Of a DNA stretch of 25,055 bases, positions 9,499-17,836 are shown piece after piece. Made by a program: the position numbers and the translations under genes. Numbering within the stretch: the stretch's first letter is position 1; every line of letters starts with the position of its first letter. Source of the DNA: a virus; the IMG/VR virus record IMGVR_UViG_3300025889_000885, positions 1 through 25,055 of that record, one strand, 5' to 3'. Below the pieces are notes generated by a model that did not search any database, had not been told where the DNA came from, and saw only the letters and a program-made list of their open reading frames with translations.

Positions 9499-10443
9499 AT
9501 GGCGCTACCCGGTCCCGGCCCTTCGTTATCTGTAGATGAGATAGCCACAGAATTTGGTGGTACAACCCCGCACTCATTGACCGAGTACTATCGAAGTGGT
9601 GGTCTTGTTCCGAATACGCCAACTAACGCAGCCATCCCAACATCTGGGCAAATTGCGGTTGGGGACTTTTATGGGGCATCAAACCGGCCACAAATTGCGC
9701 TCACTATATCCTCTGATACTTATAATTACGACGTTTATACCCAAGCAACACCAAGCCCTGCGTATATAGCTGGTAGTTCAGATATTACGGTGACAGTAAA
9801 CCCCGGGGTAACGGTGGGCAGCACTGCAACACCTACCTACGCCATGTTGGTGCCTTCTGCGTTTAATGCGGGGGATACAGTTACCATTATTAATAACGGC
9901 GTAATTCAGGGCAAGGGCGGCAATGGTGGTAACGGCGGTGGGTCTCCGATACCTCCTTTTGGGGCCGCTGTTGTTGGATCAACTGGAGCAAATGCTATAT
10001 ATGTTAACCGCCCAACAGTCATAACCAATAACGGCACTGTGGCTTCTGGCGGTGGTGGGGGTGGTGGTGGTGGGGGTAGGGTGCAACCCGTAACAGTCCC
10101 ACGACCACCAAAAAATGGCGGTCCGTATACTGTTGTTTATTTTTATGGCGGCGGGGGTGGTGGCGGCGGTGCGGGCTACAACGGGGGCACTAAAGGGCTA
10201 GGTGGATCCGGAGCAAGTGGCTCGGGTAGCCCCGGTAGTGACGGTTCATCTTCCACAGGTGGGGCAGGTGGACCTTCAGGCGGAGGACTGGGAGGTTCCG
10301 GGGGTGGACGAGGTGCTGCTGGTGCAGCGGGGACTCCTTCTAGTTACGCAGGTGCTGCTGGTGGCGCGACAGGCAACTATATTGTTGGTAATCCGTTTGT
10401 AACTTGGCCTGTAACTGGGACACGACAAGGTGGGGTAGCATGA
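9499..10443 (+). CDS. Polyglycine-rich tail fibre or adhesin
   Basis: 314 residues. The N-terminal 60 residues (LSVDEIATEFGGTTPHSLTE and PTSGQIAVGDFYGASN) are a common phage attachment domain ending in the DFYG motif. A beta region follows, with NPGVTVGSTATPTYAM and DTVTIINNGVIQGKGG. From about 137 the protein is extremely Gly-rich, with runs of ten Gly (encoded near 10047-10077) and eight Gly (near 10147-10170). GAGG/GSGG stretches and a non-repetitive C-terminus follow. Glycine-rich beds of this kind form polyglycine-II sandwich tips in Salmonella phage S16 gp38, where loops between them bind receptors. The same tip role is likely here, by inference. Next gene overlaps as ATGA. Confidence 0.82.
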   Translation: MALPGPGPSLSVDEIATEFGGTTPHSLTEYYRSGGLVPNTPTNAAIPTSGQIAVGDFYGASNRPQIALTISSDTYNYDVYTQATPSPAYIAGSSDITVTVNPGVTVGSTATPTYAMLVPSAFNAGDTVTIINNGVIQGKGGNGGNGGGSPIPPFGAAVVGSTGANAIYVNRPTVITNNGTVASGGGGGGGGGGRVQPVTVPRPPKNGGPYTVVYFYGGGGGGGGAGYNGGTKGLGGSGASGSGSPGSDGSSSTGGAGGPSGGGLGGSGGGRGAAGAAGTPSSYAGAAGGATGNYIVGNPFVTWPVTGTRQGGVA

Positions 10444-10796
10444 ATACGTTATACATGAAAATTCATTCGTACGAAGAGTCATCAAAGTCATTGGTGGTTT
10501 CTTTTGCATCGGATAAAACAGCTTCGCAAAATCCAGAAGATTACCCTGCTTACGCTTTCCAGCCATTAAACATGTGGCCCGATGTATCAGACCTTGATGA
10601 AATAAAGAAGCGAATTGCCGTTGCGGGTATGTACCACGCTGAACAACAAGCCCGCGAAGAAGCGTTTAGCGAAGACCCTGTTCGTACCGCACAAATAAAA
10701 AATTTAGTGGGACAGTTTCGTTCCTACGCTGTAGCGGATTTATTGCCGACACCATCCGAAGTACCTGATGCTTCTGACACTATACAAGAGGTGTGA
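10440..10796 (+). CDS. Conserved unknown phage protein next to the adhesin
   Basis: 118 residues from ATG 10440, overlapping the adhesin stop by ATGA. A longer open frame exists upstream but runs through the adhesin. The N-terminal MNTLYMKIHSYEESSKSLVV and FASDKTASQNPEDYPAYAFQ are characteristic of a phage family often adjacent to fibre genes. A helical second half (DLDEIKKRIAVAGMYHAEQQ) follows. The predicted mix of an N-terminal beta part and a helical C-terminus would suit a small assembly factor. I know no tested function. Translational coupling to the adhesin suggests a partner or chaperone of it. Confidence 0.7.
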   Translation: MNTLYMKIHSYEESSKSLVVSFASDKTASQNPEDYPAYAFQPLNMWPDVSDLDEIKKRIAVAGMYHAEQQAREEAFSEDPVRTAQIKNLVGQFRSYAVADLLPTPSEVPDASDTIQEV

Positions 10797-10797
10797 T

Positions 10798-11304
10798 ATG
10801 GAAGCCACATTACACCGATCTTTTGGTCTTGTAGCTACGATAGTAAAAGTGAAGAAGGGGGAAGAGATTACAGGCGAACCCATAGTAAAAAATGTTTACG
10901 AAGTAGGGTTAAATTTCAGCTACGTCAATATGCACACGAAGGGGGTGGATGTACTTGTTAATACTGTTACCGGCGAGACTATAACCCGAAGCCCCGGAGA
11001 TAACACTATTGACAATCCTGTTCCGATTGGGTCGTGGAGAATCACACTTCCAGAAGATGCGGAGATTGTTTGTTACAGCCCGTTTATTAATACGGACAAA
11101 CTTCCACTTAAAGATTACTTGGAACCTGTAGTCATCAAAGCTGGTAACAGTAAACTAATGACAAAAGGAACACAGTTTTTTCTTGCGGCTGGGGGTGTTT
11201 CAATAAATGAGCATTTAATTAGCGGGCCAAAACAAATACTTGTAAAAAACGACGACGTTCTTGTATTCGCAACCAATGACGCTTATGGGTTTATCGTCAG
11301 ATGA
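10798..11304 (+). CDS. Beta-sandwich protein, possibly cupin-like, unknown
   Basis: 168 residues from ATG 10798, with AAGAGG upstream. Sequence includes VGLNFSYVNMHTKGVDVLVN, GSWRITLPEDAEIVCYSP, KLPLKDYLEPVVIKAGNSKL and a C-terminal VKNDDVLVFATNDAYGFIVR. Alternating strands throughout suggest a beta sandwich or jelly roll. The hydrophobic strand before the end, with G-D-x-x-x-x-x-x-x-D spacing, looks like a cupin or DSBH shell. I see no metal-binding His triad, so it may be a non-catalytic relative or a virion protein. It is co-transcribed with the oxygenases downstream and overlaps the next gene by 4 bases. Confidence 0.6.
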   Translation: MEATLHRSFGLVATIVKVKKGEEITGEPIVKNVYEVGLNFSYVNMHTKGVDVLVNTVTGETITRSPGDNTIDNPVPIGSWRITLPEDAEIVCYSPFINTDKLPLKDYLEPVVIKAGNSKLMTKGTQFFLAAGGVSINEHLISGPKQILVKNDDVLVFATNDAYGFIVR

Positions 11305-11837
11305 AGTACGCAAAAAAGCTCAACTTCTCCGTACCTGAGTTTATGTACGGACTGCCCCGCACCACGCGCATTATTGCGGCAGAGGGGTCTAAAGCCAGAG
11401 GAAGAGTGCTGCGGCATTATGTTACTCGTGCAGACAGAGAGAAAATTCTAAGTATTTTTCCGCCGCATATTACTGTTACGGACAAAAGCATTTTTGTTTC
11501 GCATATCGGCCCTATTACGCCCCATGTACACAAATATGATCTGTGTGTAATTAATTTATATCTACAAGCGTCGGACGCAGAGACAGTATTTTACGATGGT
11601 GAGGCTGTCCCTTTAGAAGACCCCGAACTTAGTAACATAGATACATATATTGCATTTGATGAGAGCTTGCTTACACCTACGGAAAGTTTTAAAGCAGCGT
11701 CAGGGGATATATGGGTGTTAAATACAGGAGTGCCTCATGCGGTCGTCGCTAACGGTGCTTGCGAAGATCGGTGGGTGGTTCAAGTTTATTTGACTATACC
11801 GTTTAACGTGGCCTTGCAGCAGCTTGGAGTTAGCTAA
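11301..11837 (+). CDS. DSBH (2OG-oxygenase or cupin-like) protein with HxH motif
   Basis: 178 residues, overlapping the previous stop by 4 bases (ATGA). PHVHKYDLCVINLYLQ contains H75-x-H77. GDIWVLNTGVPHAVVANG contains H146, and R157 follows 11 residues later. The spacing fits a double-stranded beta-helix metal site with a 2-oxoglutarate-binding arginine. The canonical HxD carboxylate is replaced by His or supplied otherwise. Aspartyl/asparaginyl beta-hydroxylases also lack the carboxylate ligand, so an enzyme of that type is possible. A cupin is the alternative. Reaction and substrate are unknown. Confidence 0.55.
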   Translation: MKYAKKLNFSVPEFMYGLPRTTRIIAAEGSKARGRVLRHYVTRADREKILSIFPPHITVTDKSIFVSHIGPITPHVHKYDLCVINLYLQASDAETVFYDGEAVPLEDPELSNIDTYIAFDESLLTPTESFKAASGDIWVLNTGVPHAVVANGACEDRWVVQVYLTIPFNVALQQLGVS

Positions 11838-11839
11838 CT

Positions 11840-12409
11840 ATGGCACCCGTATATAAACTAAAAAATGTTGTGCCATTAGAGTTTTGCCAGTTTTTTACGC
11901 ATGTCCTTATGCGGCAGGGAGACTTGCATAAACACGAGGACTGCCAAGTGCCGAATGCTTTAGCGGCTATGGAGCATGAGGTCATGTTTGAAACACTGCA
12001 CGAACGGTTATGGCCCGTCATAGAAAAAGTAGTGGGCGAGGAGTTAATCCCAACATACGCTTACGCAAGGCTCTACGGGAATGATAATGTGTTGGAAAAA
12101 CACACGGATAGAGAAGCATGTGAAGTTAGCGTGACAATACAGTTGGGGCGGTCTCACCATTATGCGTGGCCTATTTACATGGGTGGGCAACGGTTTGATT
12201 TAGCAGAAGGTGATGGGGTAATTTACCCCGGCTGCGATGTGGAGCATTGGCGAGATAAATGCGATGGCCCGGACGGGTATTACTCAGGGCAAGTATTCTT
12301 GCATTTTGTACGGAAAAACGGTCCTTTCGCTGCTGAAGTTGGTGACAATAAAGTAAGAATCGAGTACTCATACAGGAAGAACCGGACAGCGCTTATGGAG
12401 TCGAAGTGA
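11840..12409 (+). CDS. 2-oxoglutarate/Fe(II)-dependent oxygenase, prolyl-4-hydroxylase-like
   Basis: 189 residues. YARLYGNDNVLEKHTDREAC supplies the HxD pair (H88, D90). GDGVIYPGCDVEHWRDKCDG supplies the distal His (H136), followed by YYSGQVFLHFV as the closing strand. This is the double-stranded beta-helix core of phage and bacterial prolyl-4-hydroxylase-like enzymes, which hydroxylate protein residues using O2, 2-oxoglutarate and Fe(II). The usual Arg/Lys contacting 2-oxoglutarate is not obvious at +8 to +12; R138 and K140 are nearby. Many marine phages carry such genes near structural modules, and their substrates are mostly unknown. Next gene overlaps as GTGA. Confidence 0.78.
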   Translation: MAPVYKLKNVVPLEFCQFFTHVLMRQGDLHKHEDCQVPNALAAMEHEVMFETLHERLWPVIEKVVGEELIPTYAYARLYGNDNVLEKHTDREACEVSVTIQLGRSHHYAWPIYMGGQRFDLAEGDGVIYPGCDVEHWRDKCDGPDGYYSGQVFLHFVRKNGPFAAEVGDNKVRIEYSYRKNRTALMESK

Positions 12410-13008
12410 TATACCCAATACCGCCAAGAGATATACCCGGCAAAGACCACCTTGCTTATTGGGAAGAGTTTTTGTCACCCGAAGATATTAACCTCATACT
12501 TGCCCAGCCGGAGTGGTTGAATTTAGAGGTTGGGTGTGTTGGCGGTGCTAGTGATGTTTCTATAACGGATTCAACAATACGCGAGACTAAATTGGCTTGG
12601 CTTGGGGCAAAGCCTGAACTCCAGCATATTTGGAACAAGCTTGCAGTTGCCGTAGCGGAAGTTAATAGGCGGTATTTTCATTTTGATATTACGGGGTTCC
12701 ATGAACCAATGCAGTTGGGGGTGTATACCGGAAGTCAGCAAGGGCACTATAACTGGCACATAGACTCTTCTCCAACAGACAATAATGTCCCAAGGAAGCT
12801 ATCCATGGCAATGCTGCTGTCTGACCCGTCAGAGTTTGAGGGGGGTGAATTTCAGGTAAAGACGAGCGATGATACGGCACAGACGCTTGAATGTAAGAAA
12901 GGTCGGGCTTGGTTTTTCCCGTCCTATACGCTACACCGCGTTGCCCCTGTAACAAAAGGCGTGCGTCGGTCGTTGGTTTTATGGGTAGGTGGCCCCCCGT
13001 TTAGGTAA
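12406..13008 (+). CDS. PKHD-type 2-oxoglutarate/Fe(II) hydroxylase
   Basis: 200 residues with a GTG start overlapping the previous stop (GTGA). GSQQGHYNWHIDSSPT carries H118-x-D120. SYTLHRVAPVTKGVRRSL carries distal H177 and R187, ten residues apart as in the PKHD-type family (PiuC/YbiX-like). EFEGGEFQVK, just before, is a conserved strand of the same fold. All catalytic positions are present, so the enzyme should be active. It would hydroxylate a protein or small molecule and consume 2-oxoglutarate and O2. Lying directly after another oxygenase and downstream of a fibre cluster, it may modify virion or host proteins; that is inference. Confidence 0.87.
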   Translation: MIYPIPPRDIPGKDHLAYWEEFLSPEDINLILAQPEWLNLEVGCVGGASDVSITDSTIRETKLAWLGAKPELQHIWNKLAVAVAEVNRRYFHFDITGFHEPMQLGVYTGSQQGHYNWHIDSSPTDNNVPRKLSMAMLLSDPSEFEGGEFQVKTSDDTAQTLECKKGRAWFFPSYTLHRVAPVTKGVRRSLVLWVGGPPFR

Positions 13009-14564: not shown

Positions 14565-15443
14565 ATGTCAACATATTCAACTAATTTGCGTATTGAGCTA
14601 ATCGGTAATGGAGAACAGCCGGGGACATGGGGGAGTACTACAAACTCCAACCTAGGGACATTGATTGAACAGGCTATAACGGGGTGGGAAGCGGTTACTA
14701 CCGTTGCGGACAAGCAAGCTTTAACGCGGTCTGATGGTGGAGCAGATCAAGCACGTAATGCAGTACTTGATCTTGATACTACTTATACAGGGGAATATCA
14801 AGTGTTTGTTCCACCTGTCCCAAAAACATACATAATAAAGAATTCCAATCTTAGCTACGGTGTCCGAATATATTGTTCGGATTCTCCCGGGAGTGTTGTT
14901 CCAGCAGGAACTTATGTTTTAGTCCCAGCAGGGAAAACCATTCCTATGTATTCCGATGGTACGGATATAAAAATATCTGTAGATCATTTAATTTCTCCTA
15001 CCTTATCCAATGCCGAATTGGATGGGGTGACATTAAGTGGAACGGTATCTTCTTCCGGTGCAGTTCTATCAGGAACATTCGATGCTTCTGGTTCCGTTCT
15101 TGATACACCTACTATTGATGCCGCCACTTTGAACGGTGGATACACGGAGCAGGTGTATGCGATAAGTGGCACTACTCCAGCATTGTCTCCGACAAATGGT
15201 TCAATACAAACATGGACCTTATCTGGAAACTCCACCCCTACTGCTGGAACATGGGCATCTGGTCAATCAATCATGATTATGATTGATGACGGAACTAATT
15301 ACACTGTTGATTGGGCATCTTTATCAATCGCATGGAAGTCAGGAGGGGGTAGCGCTCCAGCACTTTTGACTACAGGGTACACGCCTATTGTGCTGTGGAA
15401 GGTGGCCTCTACTATTTACGGGGCACGGGTGGGAGATGCTTGA
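14565..15443 (+). CDS. Tail appendage / fibre-like protein
   Basis: 292 residues with AAGGAAAG upstream. The N-terminus (STNLRIELIGNGEQPGTWGS, then TTNSNLGTLIEQAITGW) is a common attachment domain of phage fibres in marine and soil genomes. A beta region follows with VPAGTYVLVPAGKTIPMYSD. Then come short repeats (SNAELDGVTLSGTVSSSGAV, LSGTFDASGSVLDTPTIDAA) that look like a narrow beta helix. The C-terminal domain ends LWKVASTIYGARVGDA, also typical of these fibres. It probably forms a side fibre or spike. The stop overlaps the ATG of the beta-propeller gene by one base (TGATG). Confidence 0.82.
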   Translation: MSTYSTNLRIELIGNGEQPGTWGSTTNSNLGTLIEQAITGWEAVTTVADKQALTRSDGGADQARNAVLDLDTTYTGEYQVFVPPVPKTYIIKNSNLSYGVRIYCSDSPGSVVPAGTYVLVPAGKTIPMYSDGTDIKISVDHLISPTLSNAELDGVTLSGTVSSSGAVLSGTFDASGSVLDTPTIDAATLNGGYTEQVYAISGTTPALSPTNGSIQTWTLSGNSTPTAGTWASGQSIMIMIDDGTNYTVDWASLSIAWKSGGGSAPALLTTGYTPIVLWKVASTIYGARVGDA

Positions 15444-16684
15444 TGCTCTTATCCTCCCTACTTGGTGCTTCTTCCGCTACTACCGATAAATATGTCGCAG
15501 TTGCTCAACGCGTAACGGCTTCCCCTAGTGACATATATACGCCTACTACGCCTAGATTAGCTATATATCCTTGGCACTCAGGGGTGGGGTTTGGGGTTCC
15601 AAATTTGCCGCCTACTACCCTTAGTGGAAATGCTATTTCCTCAGTTAAATTTAATACCGCAAAAAATGTATTAGCTGTCGGGTCAGGTGATTGGCTAACT
15701 CAACATAGCTATGCTTCAAATGTGTTTTGCGCTTATCCTTGGGATAATGTTACTGGAGCATTAGGGACTAGGTTTTCAAGCCCATCTACATGGCCTAATA
15801 GTACTTACGGTATAACTCAAATTGAATTTTCCCCTTCCGATGATACTGTGTTCCTATCATCCATGAGTGCCCCCTTTATCCTTGCGTATCAATGGTCGAA
15901 TACAACGGGGTTTGGTACAAAGTATAGTGACCCATCTTCCTTACCTAATATTTATCAAAACTATGCATCTGTGGGGTTTAATAGACAATTAAATCTACAA
16001 GTTCATCCTAGTGGTAACTGTGTTGCGATAACTACCCAAAGTGGTACGGCTACTAACACTCCTTTATTTAAGGCGTATCCATGGAGTACCGCTACTGGGT
16101 TTGGCACAGCATATAGTAATCCAGTTGCGGCTACTGCTATTTATGACAACATATTTGGTCTGATGTTCACTCCATCAGGAGAAAGCCTTTTGACATTAGG
16201 CACTGGAGATAATGCTAGATCTTTTGATTTTTATGCAAACGGCGGTGGATTTAGCTCTTCAAATTACCCAATACTTTCTCCTTCCGGATGTGAAGCAAAG
16301 CAAAGAGCTATCTCTAATAATGCGGGGGATGTAATATTTTTTGGCAACTACAACTATTACTCGTATGGCTCTGAAAAACTAGTTGAGGCTTTTAGCTATA
16401 CAGATTCGCCTTTTTCCTTGGGTACGCCTTTTTCCTCTGCGGTAGGTATGCCAACTATTTCTCAGCAGAAGTGGTACAACTTTACTCCCCAGCCATTCTA
16501 TAGATTAGCTATAGATCCAGATGACTCAACTATCTTTTTTTCGGTCTGTGGAGCGGCTAACCTTCAGGTTCCAAAGATGTACGCCTTTGGTTGGGATAAT
16601 ACTTCGGGATGGGGGGCAAAATATAATGACCCCTCTACTTTTCAAAGTACTCAACTATGCCTTGATCTAGCATTGTCTTGGTAA
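15443..16684 (+). CDS. Seven-bladed beta-propeller virion protein A
   Basis: 413 residues from ATG 15443, overlapping the upstream stop (TGATG); 48 more in-frame bases exist inside the upstream gene. After about 12 residues come seven repeats of roughly 50 residues. Each has an A-Y-P/Q-W strand, G-F-G-x-x-Y-S-x-P and an F-x-P-S-x-D-x-x-x-x-S turn. Clear blades are FCAYPWDNVTGALGTRFSSP, ILAYQWSNTTGFGTKYSDPS, FKAYPWSTATGFGTAYSNPV and MYAFGWDNTSGWGAKYNDPS. The last strand, LCLDLALSW, could close the ring against KYVAVAQRV of blade 1. WD40-like propellers with this motif occur in other phages. A host-binding appendage is inferred. Confidence 0.78.
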   Translation: MLLSSLLGASSATTDKYVAVAQRVTASPSDIYTPTTPRLAIYPWHSGVGFGVPNLPPTTLSGNAISSVKFNTAKNVLAVGSGDWLTQHSYASNVFCAYPWDNVTGALGTRFSSPSTWPNSTYGITQIEFSPSDDTVFLSSMSAPFILAYQWSNTTGFGTKYSDPSSLPNIYQNYASVGFNRQLNLQVHPSGNCVAITTQSGTATNTPLFKAYPWSTATGFGTAYSNPVAATAIYDNIFGLMFTPSGESLLTLGTGDNARSFDFYANGGGFSSSNYPILSPSGCEAKQRAISNNAGDVIFFGNYNYYSYGSEKLVEAFSYTDSPFSLGTPFSSAVGMPTISQQKWYNFTPQPFYRLAIDPDDSTIFFSVCGAANLQVPKMYAFGWDNTSGWGAKYNDPSTFQSTQLCLDLALSW

Positions 16685-16693
16685 GGGAACATT

Positions 16694-17836
16694 ATGTTAT
16701 TTAATTTCGCTGCCGCCACTGCTCCCGTTATTCAAGGATATGTAGCTATTTCAGGTAACGACAATAGCAATACTAAGTTATATATTTATCCATGGCTTAG
16801 AGAATCCGGTTTTGGAAGCTTACGATATGATTTAAGCTACCCATACGTAAATTATATATATGAAACAGGGGTTGCATTTAATAATGCAAAAACCGCATTA
16901 GCTTTTGTAACAAAAGATTTAGTAGAGGTATGGGAATGGGACAATATCAATGGTGTTTTAGGTTCTCAGTTTTCTGCCCCAGCCACTGCCCCAACTGGCT
17001 ATTTAAGAAATGTCACGTTTTCCCCTTCAGATGATGTCCTTTTTATAGGGTCATATGATTCTCCCTATATACATGCGTATGAATGGAACAATTCTTCCGG
17101 GTTTGGAGCAAAGTACAGTAACCCATCTACATTGCCAACAGGGGGGAGTGCCCTTCAGGTTCACCCAAGTGGTAATGCGGTAATTGTTTCTTCTGAAACG
17201 CAAGGCTCGATTAGTTCCCCTAGAATATATGTATACCCATGGAATTATTCTACGGGTTTTGGAACGATAATGACTAACCCCACTTACCCTAATAACTTTT
17301 ATCAAATATGGGGTACTTATTTCACGCCTTCCGGGGACACATTGCTTACTTTGGGAGAGGACTACTTATCTTCTTACAGTAATAGAGCAATTGAGTTTGA
17401 CTCAAACGGAAGTGGTTTTGTTTCCCCTTCTCCAGATACATTGATTTATACAAATGAGGCAACTGATGCAGTAGCTGGGTCAAATAATGTAGTGTTTATA
17501 GGAAAGAACTCTTCATCTGCATCTAGCACCTACGCTATGTATGCGTATCCGTACACTGAAAATAATTTCACATTAAGTAGTCCGTATTCTGACGCTGTAA
17601 ATATGCCTAAAAACTATGGCGCGGGGTCAAATTCGTTTTTTATATCAGGAATGGCAATTAGCGAAGACAATAGTGTCTTACTATTTACTAGCTCTACTAC
17701 TAATTTGACTTCTGCCGGAGTATATGGGTTTGATTTTAATGACATTACAGGGTGGGGGCAGAAGTATAATTCTCCAACTGAGCTAATAAATAGTTCCGTT
17801 ATACGGTCGGCACATTCAATATCTATTACTTTTTAA
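16694..17836 (+). CDS. Seven-bladed beta-propeller virion protein B (paralogue of A)
   Basis: 380 residues, 9 bases after the previous stop, with a weak ribosome site. Domain order and motifs follow protein A blade by blade: VWEWDNINGVLGSQFSAPAT, HAYEWNNSSGFGAKYSNPST, VYPWNYSTGFGTIMTNPTYP and YGFDFNDITGWGQKYNSPTE, with FSPSDDVLFIGS and LQVHPSGNAVIVSS turns. Even DNA near-matches remain, such as the VHPSGN segment around 16000 and 17157. A tandem duplication followed by divergence is the simplest history. Codons are AT-rich. Probable role as for A; the two may bind different ligands. Confidence 0.76.
   Translation: MLFNFAAATAPVIQGYVAISGNDNSNTKLYIYPWLRESGFGSLRYDLSYPYVNYIYETGVAFNNAKTALAFVTKDLVEVWEWDNINGVLGSQFSAPATAPTGYLRNVTFSPSDDVLFIGSYDSPYIHAYEWNNSSGFGAKYSNPSTLPTGGSALQVHPSGNAVIVSSETQGSISSPRIYVYPWNYSTGFGTIMTNPTYPNNFYQIWGTYFTPSGDTLLTLGEDYLSSYSNRAIEFDSNGSGFVSPSPDTLIYTNEATDAVAGSNNVVFIGKNSSSASSTYAMYAYPYTENNFTLSSPYSDAVNMPKNYGAGSNSFFISGMAISEDNSVLLFTSSTTNLTSAGVYGFDFNDITGWGQKYNSPTELINSSVIRSAHSISITF

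Follow-up and report, generated by a model that had tools for sequence, protein, structure and literature searches.

A conserved phage module linking a glycine-rich adhesin to predicted 2-oxoglutarate oxygenases

Why would a phage keep a run of putative oxygenase genes directly behind the gene for an adhesin? This question is raised by the tail region of a virus record of 25,055 bp (IMG/VR record IMGVR_UViG_3300025889_000885, positions 1 to 25,055, analysed at its full length and termed the window hereafter), in which five genes, designated A to E, at 10440-13008 come immediately after a gene for a glycine-rich (Gly-rich) adhesin at 9499-10443. Our comparisons indicate that these genes belong to a conserved module, that the adhesin is a likely substrate or partner of the oxygenase cassette and, judging from sequence, that the chances of the cassette enzymes hydroxylating the adhesin encoded just upstream are about even. 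The genes of the module in the window are:

9499-10443, plus strand: Gly-rich adhesin or fibre tip, 314 aa, 25% Gly, with a conserved C-terminus (GNYIVGNPFVTWPVTGTRQGGVA) and a match to phrog_2056
10440-10796, plus strand: gene A, 118 aa, strict partner of the adhesin, starting within the adhesin stop codon
10798-11304, plus strand: gene B, 168 aa, predicted double-cupin (bicupin) protein of the double-stranded beta-helix (DSBH) fold, without metal ligands
11301-11837, plus strand: gene C, 178 aa, predicted 2-oxoglutarate (2OG) oxygenase fold with HxH(75,77)...H146...R157; the HxH paralogue (C1) of an HxD family
11840-12409, plus strand: gene D, 189 aa, with invariant H88-x-D90...H136 and R138; phrog_2954, labelled 'ferrochelatase'
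12406-13008, plus strand: gene E, 200 aa, GTG start, predicted 2OG-Fe(II) oxygenase (PF13640) with H118-x-D120...H177...R187, resembling PKHD enzymes and prolyl 4-hydroxylases (P4H)

Each of these genes overlaps its neighbour or sits 1-2 bases away from it. The adhesin stop codon and the ATG of gene A share 4 bases (ATGA), B and C (11301/11304) and D and E (12406/12409) overlap by 4 bases, and 2 bases separate C from D (11837 and 11840). The open reading frames (ORFs) and spacing agree with those of the original prediction, which had described a cassette of four genes; its B to E were correct, and the fifth gene, A, between the adhesin and B, had been overlooked. P22-type tail genes lie downstream of the module, and the phage also encodes a gp10-type stabilisation protein and a major capsid protein with 76% identity to its counterpart in Pelagibacter phage HTVC023P and 74% to the one in phage DSL-LC04, similarities that identify it as a relative of marine and freshwater podoviruses.

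Conservation of the adhesin-oxygenase module

Searching IMG/VR with D returned 60 relatives and with E 130, and all ORFs were clustered. The recurring order was Gly-rich adhesin, A, B (or the unrelated c22), C, D, the optional families c5, c6, c31 and c27, and E, with 303/315 adjacent cassette gene pairs overlapping or at most 15 nt apart. Among distinct A genes with visible upstream DNA, 79 of 82 are directly preceded by an ORF of at least 20% Gly, against a background of 6/471 (1.3%) for genes more than 4 kb away. As a guard against ascertainment bias, IMG/VR was also searched blind to the oxygenases, with the adhesin C-terminal motif GNPFVTW only. Gene A adjoined the adhesin on every new contig that had an in-frame Gly-rich ORF and at least ~330 bp downstream, and at least one oxygenase was present in 45 of the 48 distinct modules having at least 2.5 kb downstream, leaving three without. 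Gene A is therefore obligatory in the module and B nearly so, and the oxygenases are usual but dispensable. Absence from VIA-align lists was not counted as evidence. Both the A-gene count and the blind search bear out the co-occurrence with a Gly-rich adhesin for which the original prediction had proposed a comparison of neighbourhoods.

The module adjoins P22/HTVC023P-type structural genes in some phages and T4-type neck genes (head-tail adaptor Ad2, head closure Hc2) in loci L005, L156 and others, and it is also present on one 244 kb contig (L062). As the downstream genes differ in this way, the module has been exchanged as a unit between unlike phages. A DNA-level search of the region among phage records gave no match, nor did searches for proteins A, B and C in named phages, so that no isolate with exactly this module was found.

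The adhesin matches phrog_2056, a host-specificity tail fibre family, at 1.6e-12, a value to which composition bias may contribute. Against PF05268 (Gp38) it scored 11.2 bits (E 0.33), short of the gathering score of 25, and a sequence search for a solved relative gave none. Its likeness to T2-type gp38, a polyglycine II (PGII) sandwich (PMC12892980), lies in being a Gly-rich receptor-binding protein of the fibre tip with variable loops, the window adhesin being known from sequence alone; it differs in falling below the PF05268 cut-off and in its company of oxygenases, which are not described for gp38 in that paper. Gene A had no database match and may encode an adhesin assembly or cap protein.

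Some loci depart from the common set of genes. Family c27, which weakly matches fatty-acid desaturases and has desaturase His boxes, represents another type of iron oxygenase and lies within or beside some cassettes (L012, 7781-8512, and seven further loci). In an adhesin-A module at L169 (1511-2041), a class I methyltransferase-like gene occupies the slot where the B and oxygenase genes usually begin. Locus L206 (5578-10272), filed as a Bacteroidetes genome, carries a phage adhesin-B-desaturase-oxygenase module and a downstream collagen-repeat protein (PF01391), and is probably a phage contig that was binned wrongly.

Predicted folds and active sites

Gene E matches PF13640 at 58.3 bits (gathering cut-off 27; 1.5e-15), and H118, D120, H177 and R187 are kept in 73/73 relatives, which identifies its product as a 2OG-Fe(II) oxygenase at the level of sequence. 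Since its nearest solved relatives are the PKHD-type PiuC and prolyl 4-hydroxylases, protein hydroxylation is a plausible activity. The solved enzyme 5c5t, whose entry bears the name Prolyl 4-hydroxylase and which we take to be of viral origin, is a further relative (2e-7). PiuC and YbiX are its nearest solved and named relatives among PKHD-type hydroxylases, yet it falls far below their equivalog cut-offs (62.7 bits vs 143 for the NCBIfam PKHD-type hydroxylase equivalog, and lower for other equivalogs), and its genomic setting is unlike theirs.

For gene D, H88, D90 and H136 are invariant in 51/51 close relatives and in 19 divergent members, over which the pattern HxDR...GD...HxR is also invariant. 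A Pfam search with D and 18 relatives assigned none of them to a family; matches to a Tet-like dioxygenase and PiuC were weak (E 0.12-1.4), and an hhalign comparison with E was colinear but weak. At L209 and L210 a single gene, immediately behind one for a Gly-rich tail-like protein, encodes both the D domain and a PF13640 domain. A basic residue about 10 positions past the distal His is not conserved, R138 (two past that His), R91 and Q151 being invariant instead, and because the usual Arg is missing we go no further than to call D most likely a divergent 2OG-Fe(II) oxygenase. Of the two 2OG/Fe(II) oxygenases originally predicted, E is thus borne out by its PF13640 match and HxD...H...R motif, and D, with no Pfam match, is only probable. 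The ferrochelatase label of phrog_2954 was considered and rejected for D, which matches no ferrochelatase profile and has the HxD...H motif instead; the phage 'ferrochelatase' family (11840-12409 in the window; L118, 8830-9438) is probably a widespread misannotation of an oxygenase.

The product of gene C was modelled with AlphaFold2 from its family alignment at a mean predicted local distance difference test (pLDDT) score of 89.6. The best 50 structural matches (Z 9.3-11.2) are DSBH enzymes, almost all of them 2OG oxygenases, and include a best match at Z 11.2 over 154 residues (3.6 A), itself a 2OG oxygenase; BesD-type halogenase and hydroxylase, ycfD, ALKBH6/7 and P4H are among the top ones (Z 10-11, 126-160 residues). 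In the family, H75 and H146 are present in 53/53 members, R157, about 10 residues past the distal His, is Arg or Lys in 46/53, and position 77 is His in 22 and Asp in 31. The window copy accordingly reads HxH...H where the usual triad is HxD/E...H, and 31/53 members read HxD...H. By its model, C is a 2OG-oxygenase fold with a variant metal ligand set. The family splits into an HxH and an HxD paralogue, and wherever a locus has both, HxH precedes HxD (4/4; L015, L018, L072 and L077). HxH is also seen in c5, c31 and a pelagiphage family.

A direct IMG/VR scan with gene B found no relatives, which were obtained through its neighbour genes instead. The resulting AlphaFold2 model (from the family alignment, pLDDT 95.8) matches double cupins, among them the pirin YhhW (Z 9.5, 150 residues, 4.9 A), and also resembles phage proteins of unknown function, one of them from Prochlorococcus phage P-HM2. 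The model makes B two tandem cupin DSBH domains (bicupin or pirin-like). No conserved His/Glu set of cupin metal ligands was found in its relatives, in which only F9 and N98 are invariant, and B may therefore be a scaffold or pseudo-enzyme. First Foldseek matches had pointed to regulatory subunits of protein kinase A (PKA); this was set aside, as TM-scores were poor and only jelly-roll pairs were shared. Comparisons by hhalign of B/C, C/E, D/C and B/c22 detected no homology. The original prediction had B as a beta-rich relative without metal ligands, of which the fold and the ligand loss hold and sequence homology does not; it had named the lack of a DSBH fold in B and C as a ground for rejection, and both models have that fold. 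The metal ligands it read in C, D and E are present and kept across relatives.

These observations bear on the idea that the DSBH proteins are aids to virion assembly, either chaperones or fibre parts, whose catalysis would be incidental or directed at transient intermediates. The retention of B beside A in spite of its missing ligands, and the existence of A-B modules without oxygenases, would be explained. D, E, c5 and c6 keep their catalytic residues without exception, which suggests that the enzymes are under selection and would be unnecessary for a structural role; c5, c6 and c31 all carry metal triads, and c31 matches PF13759. Service as a structural part or chaperone would account for B, and perhaps for A, but not for the invariant-triad enzymes, and for the cassette as a whole we regard it as very improbable.

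Candidate substrates of the cassette

The pelagiphage D gene, used as a query, led to 49 loci with sufficient upstream DNA. In 47 of them a second, marine order opens with at least one Gly-rich fibre, continues with a MAHFAEL protein and then a 167-aa protein, and closes with 2OG genes in a run that has D at its end. The fibres end in a GGSGIVIIRY-like sequence, and the 167-aa protein has no conserved His. By hhalign, the enzymes are homologous between the two architectures (D/D2 99.9, E/E2 99.5), whereas A/MAHFAEL and B/167-aa gave no match above the reporting limit, so the same enzyme families have joined two unrelated Gly-rich adhesin systems. A within-locus permutation of how far D lies from the closest Gly-rich gene showed no closeness (p 0.998), since D stands at the end of the run; the informative result is the order gene by gene.

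Such recurrence is difficult to reconcile with a fibre region that merely tolerates insertions and holds oxygenases acting on host metabolism (2OG/nitrogen balance or small molecules). Host metabolism is the usual published view of phage 2OG oxygenases (PMC9602691, PMC10611076), and relatives of D and E do lie elsewhere in some genomes. The order and coupling are nevertheless far too regular for an accessory-gene hotspot, unrelated Gly-rich fibres have these same enzymes next to them, and consumption of 2OG would need no four or five divergent active sites. We consider this explanation decidedly unlikely.

Bacterial relatives of D offer a further comparison. In Rhizobacter (L214, 3872-9918) and Massilia (L212, 435-4220) the operon of a D homologue also encodes a Gly-rich repeat protein, (GTEMSPGG)n, a further oxygenase-like product and an FkbM methyltransferase, and a PF13640 oxygenase is next in Rhizobacter. 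These operons look like systems for modifying a ribosomal peptide, possibly an undescribed cluster; a literature search on GTEMSPGG repeats found no paper.

If the cassette acts on the adhesin, then the adhesin, A and B would constitute the core of the module, and C, D and E (with their relatives c5, c6, c31 and others) would be Fe(II)/2OG oxygenases expressed from the same operon. Late in infection, before or during virion assembly, these enzymes would hydroxylate side chains (e.g. Pro, Asn/Asp or Lys) of the Gly-rich receptor-binding protein, with A serving in assembly or as a cap and B, itself non-catalytic, acting as a scaffold on which the adhesin is presented. Differing enzyme sets would create differing adhesin surface chemistry, which could improve binding, stability or escape from host change. 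We favour hydroxylation of the adhesin because A genes follow a Gly-rich ORF (79/82) and oxygenases recur in modules found without reference to them (45/48); because the gene pairs are tight (303/315) and the module travels as a unit between P22-type and T4-type settings; because a second Gly-rich fibre architecture (47/49) and D-E fusions after Gly-rich proteins (L209, L210) repeat the association; and because of the operons of Rhizobacter and Massilia that resemble peptide-modification systems, the invariant catalytic residues and the P4H/PKHD relatives of E. The coupling to the adhesin supposed in the original prediction thus gains from the conserved order, the mobile unit and the second fibre system, and its hydroxylation substrate stays at the level of plausibility.

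The main rival holds that the oxygenases, together with occasional desaturase-, methyltransferase- or glycosyltransferase-like neighbours, alter a host surface glycan or lipid for receptor masking or a superinfection block, and travel with the adhesin as both concern the same receptor. The desaturase c27 inside some cassettes, the methyltransferase-like gene in the L169 slot, the bacterial D homologues beside O-FucT-like and FkbM genes, and a carbamoyltransferase in cyanophage runs would all suit such a role. The enzymes are, however, small, soluble and P4H/PKHD-like, unlike known glycan enzymes; the gene order begins inside the adhesin stop codon; two betaproteobacterial D operons encode a repeat polypeptide; and the window phage has its kin among podoviruses that were isolated on growing hosts, a group less expected to exclude superinfection. 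Modification of the host surface is, in our estimate, unlikely.

Several findings weigh against hydroxylation of the adhesin. Three lineages have adhesin-A-B (or c22 in place of B) and no oxygenase, which implies that hydroxylation is not obligatory for such adhesins, and the content of Pro, Asn, Asp and Lys does not differ between adhesins with and without oxygenases, only three being without. In Pseudonocardia and Kouleothrix, D homologues lie beside glycosyltransferase-like (O-FucT) genes, so that the D class is not limited to one type of substrate, and the runs of cyanophages S-CAM8 and S-SSM5 include a Nol-like carbamoyltransferase, which fits glycan modification too. Some distant D and E relatives have no recognisable fibre neighbour, which agrees with one part of what the original prediction would have counted against itself, namely oxygenases that occur without any fibre gene. 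Collagen-like Gly-X-Y repeats as a general substrate were sought in the cassette loci, where only short or Pro-poor runs were found, along with one PF01391 neighbour (L206).

More broadly, and tentatively, aquatic phages may possess a general tailoring of receptor-binding proteins akin to that of ribosomally synthesised and post-translationally modified peptides (RiPPs), in which a mobile Gly-rich adhesin is combined with interchangeable oxygenases (and an occasional halogenase, desaturase or methyltransferase) that set the chemistry of the contact surface; we think this possible, if somewhat doubtful. Phage 2OG oxygenases are very common in aquatic viruses and are usually called metabolic genes, and coupling to a receptor-binding protein makes their function directly testable. 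Should the adhesin be hydroxylated, phage host binding would include enzyme-made chemistry that is unpredictable from sequence alone, a little-explored route by which phages could chemically tailor the part that contacts the host, and two widespread database labels (ferrochelatase for phrog_2954 and endonuclease V for phrog_274) would need correction.

Oxygenase runs in other phages

Runs of 2OG oxygenases near phage fibres are already known from annotations; what is apparently new is the conserved adhesin-A-B-oxygenase module. The Fe(II)-dependent oxygenases of marine phage metaviromic islands have been counted in a table under host recognition (PMC3909814). Those islands resemble our loci as variable regions of marine phages that also hold Gp38-type adhesins, and differ in that the study gives a table count only, with gene order, mechanism and substrate absent there. 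The prolyl 4-hydroxylase of Chlorella virus PBCV-1, cited in PMC9301287, where the use in viruses is called cryptic, is a virus-encoded protein hydroxylase, as proposed for gene E; it differs in belonging to a eukaryotic virus, in having a collagen-like substrate and in not being known from a multi-enzyme cassette behind an adhesin. One cyanophage encodes 24 2OG oxygenases, with functions described as uninvestigated (PMC9602691). Our literature search, outside which most subscription papers lay, found no report of hydroxylated phage tail fibres or adhesins or of this module; the virion-modifying pathway that the original prediction called new is thus unreported in that search, and the link from oxygenases to host recognition had already been drawn in PMC3909814.

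The original prediction was wrong to call several such genes in a row unusual, as 2OG runs are common in aquatic phages. Those of cyanophages and pelagiphages near tail fibres (S-CAM8, S-SSM5, HTVC008M, HTVC023P and Mosig) have homologous E and D families in several consecutive genes, often beside Gly-rich or other fibres as in the window module; they differ in their adhesin family and partner genes, lack A and B of the window type and in some cases lie outside fibre regions. Ten further D loci came from named phages: four have clear Gly-rich genes nearby (L297, L300, L302 and L303), L298 is borderline Gly-rich, L305 has RCC1-like fibre repeats, and four have none of these (L299, L301, L304 and L306). 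At L303 (477-6639), from Synechococcus phage Sf-CH1a, 2OG genes, D and a tryptophan 7-halogenase form a run between two Gly-rich genes, and an unbroken run at L299 (26-5516), from Synechococcus phage S-CREM1, contains a JmjC gene and eight genes annotated as 2OG oxygenases.

Some cyanophage genes are labelled DNA endonuclease V (phrog_274; L215, 9538-10116; L216, 3633-4148 and 31036-31503; L118, 11244-11759). Endonuclease V or pyrimidine-dimer glycosylase was rejected as the identity of this family, which covers c5, c6, c31 and their cyanophage relatives: no cyanophage member matches an endonuclease profile, and members match PF13640 and PF13759 (up to 3e-7 and 2e-11).

Elsewhere in the window, two tandem duplicated genes (15395-16684 and 16694-17836; 429 and 380 aa) with weak WD40-like repeats possibly encode beta-propeller fibre proteins.

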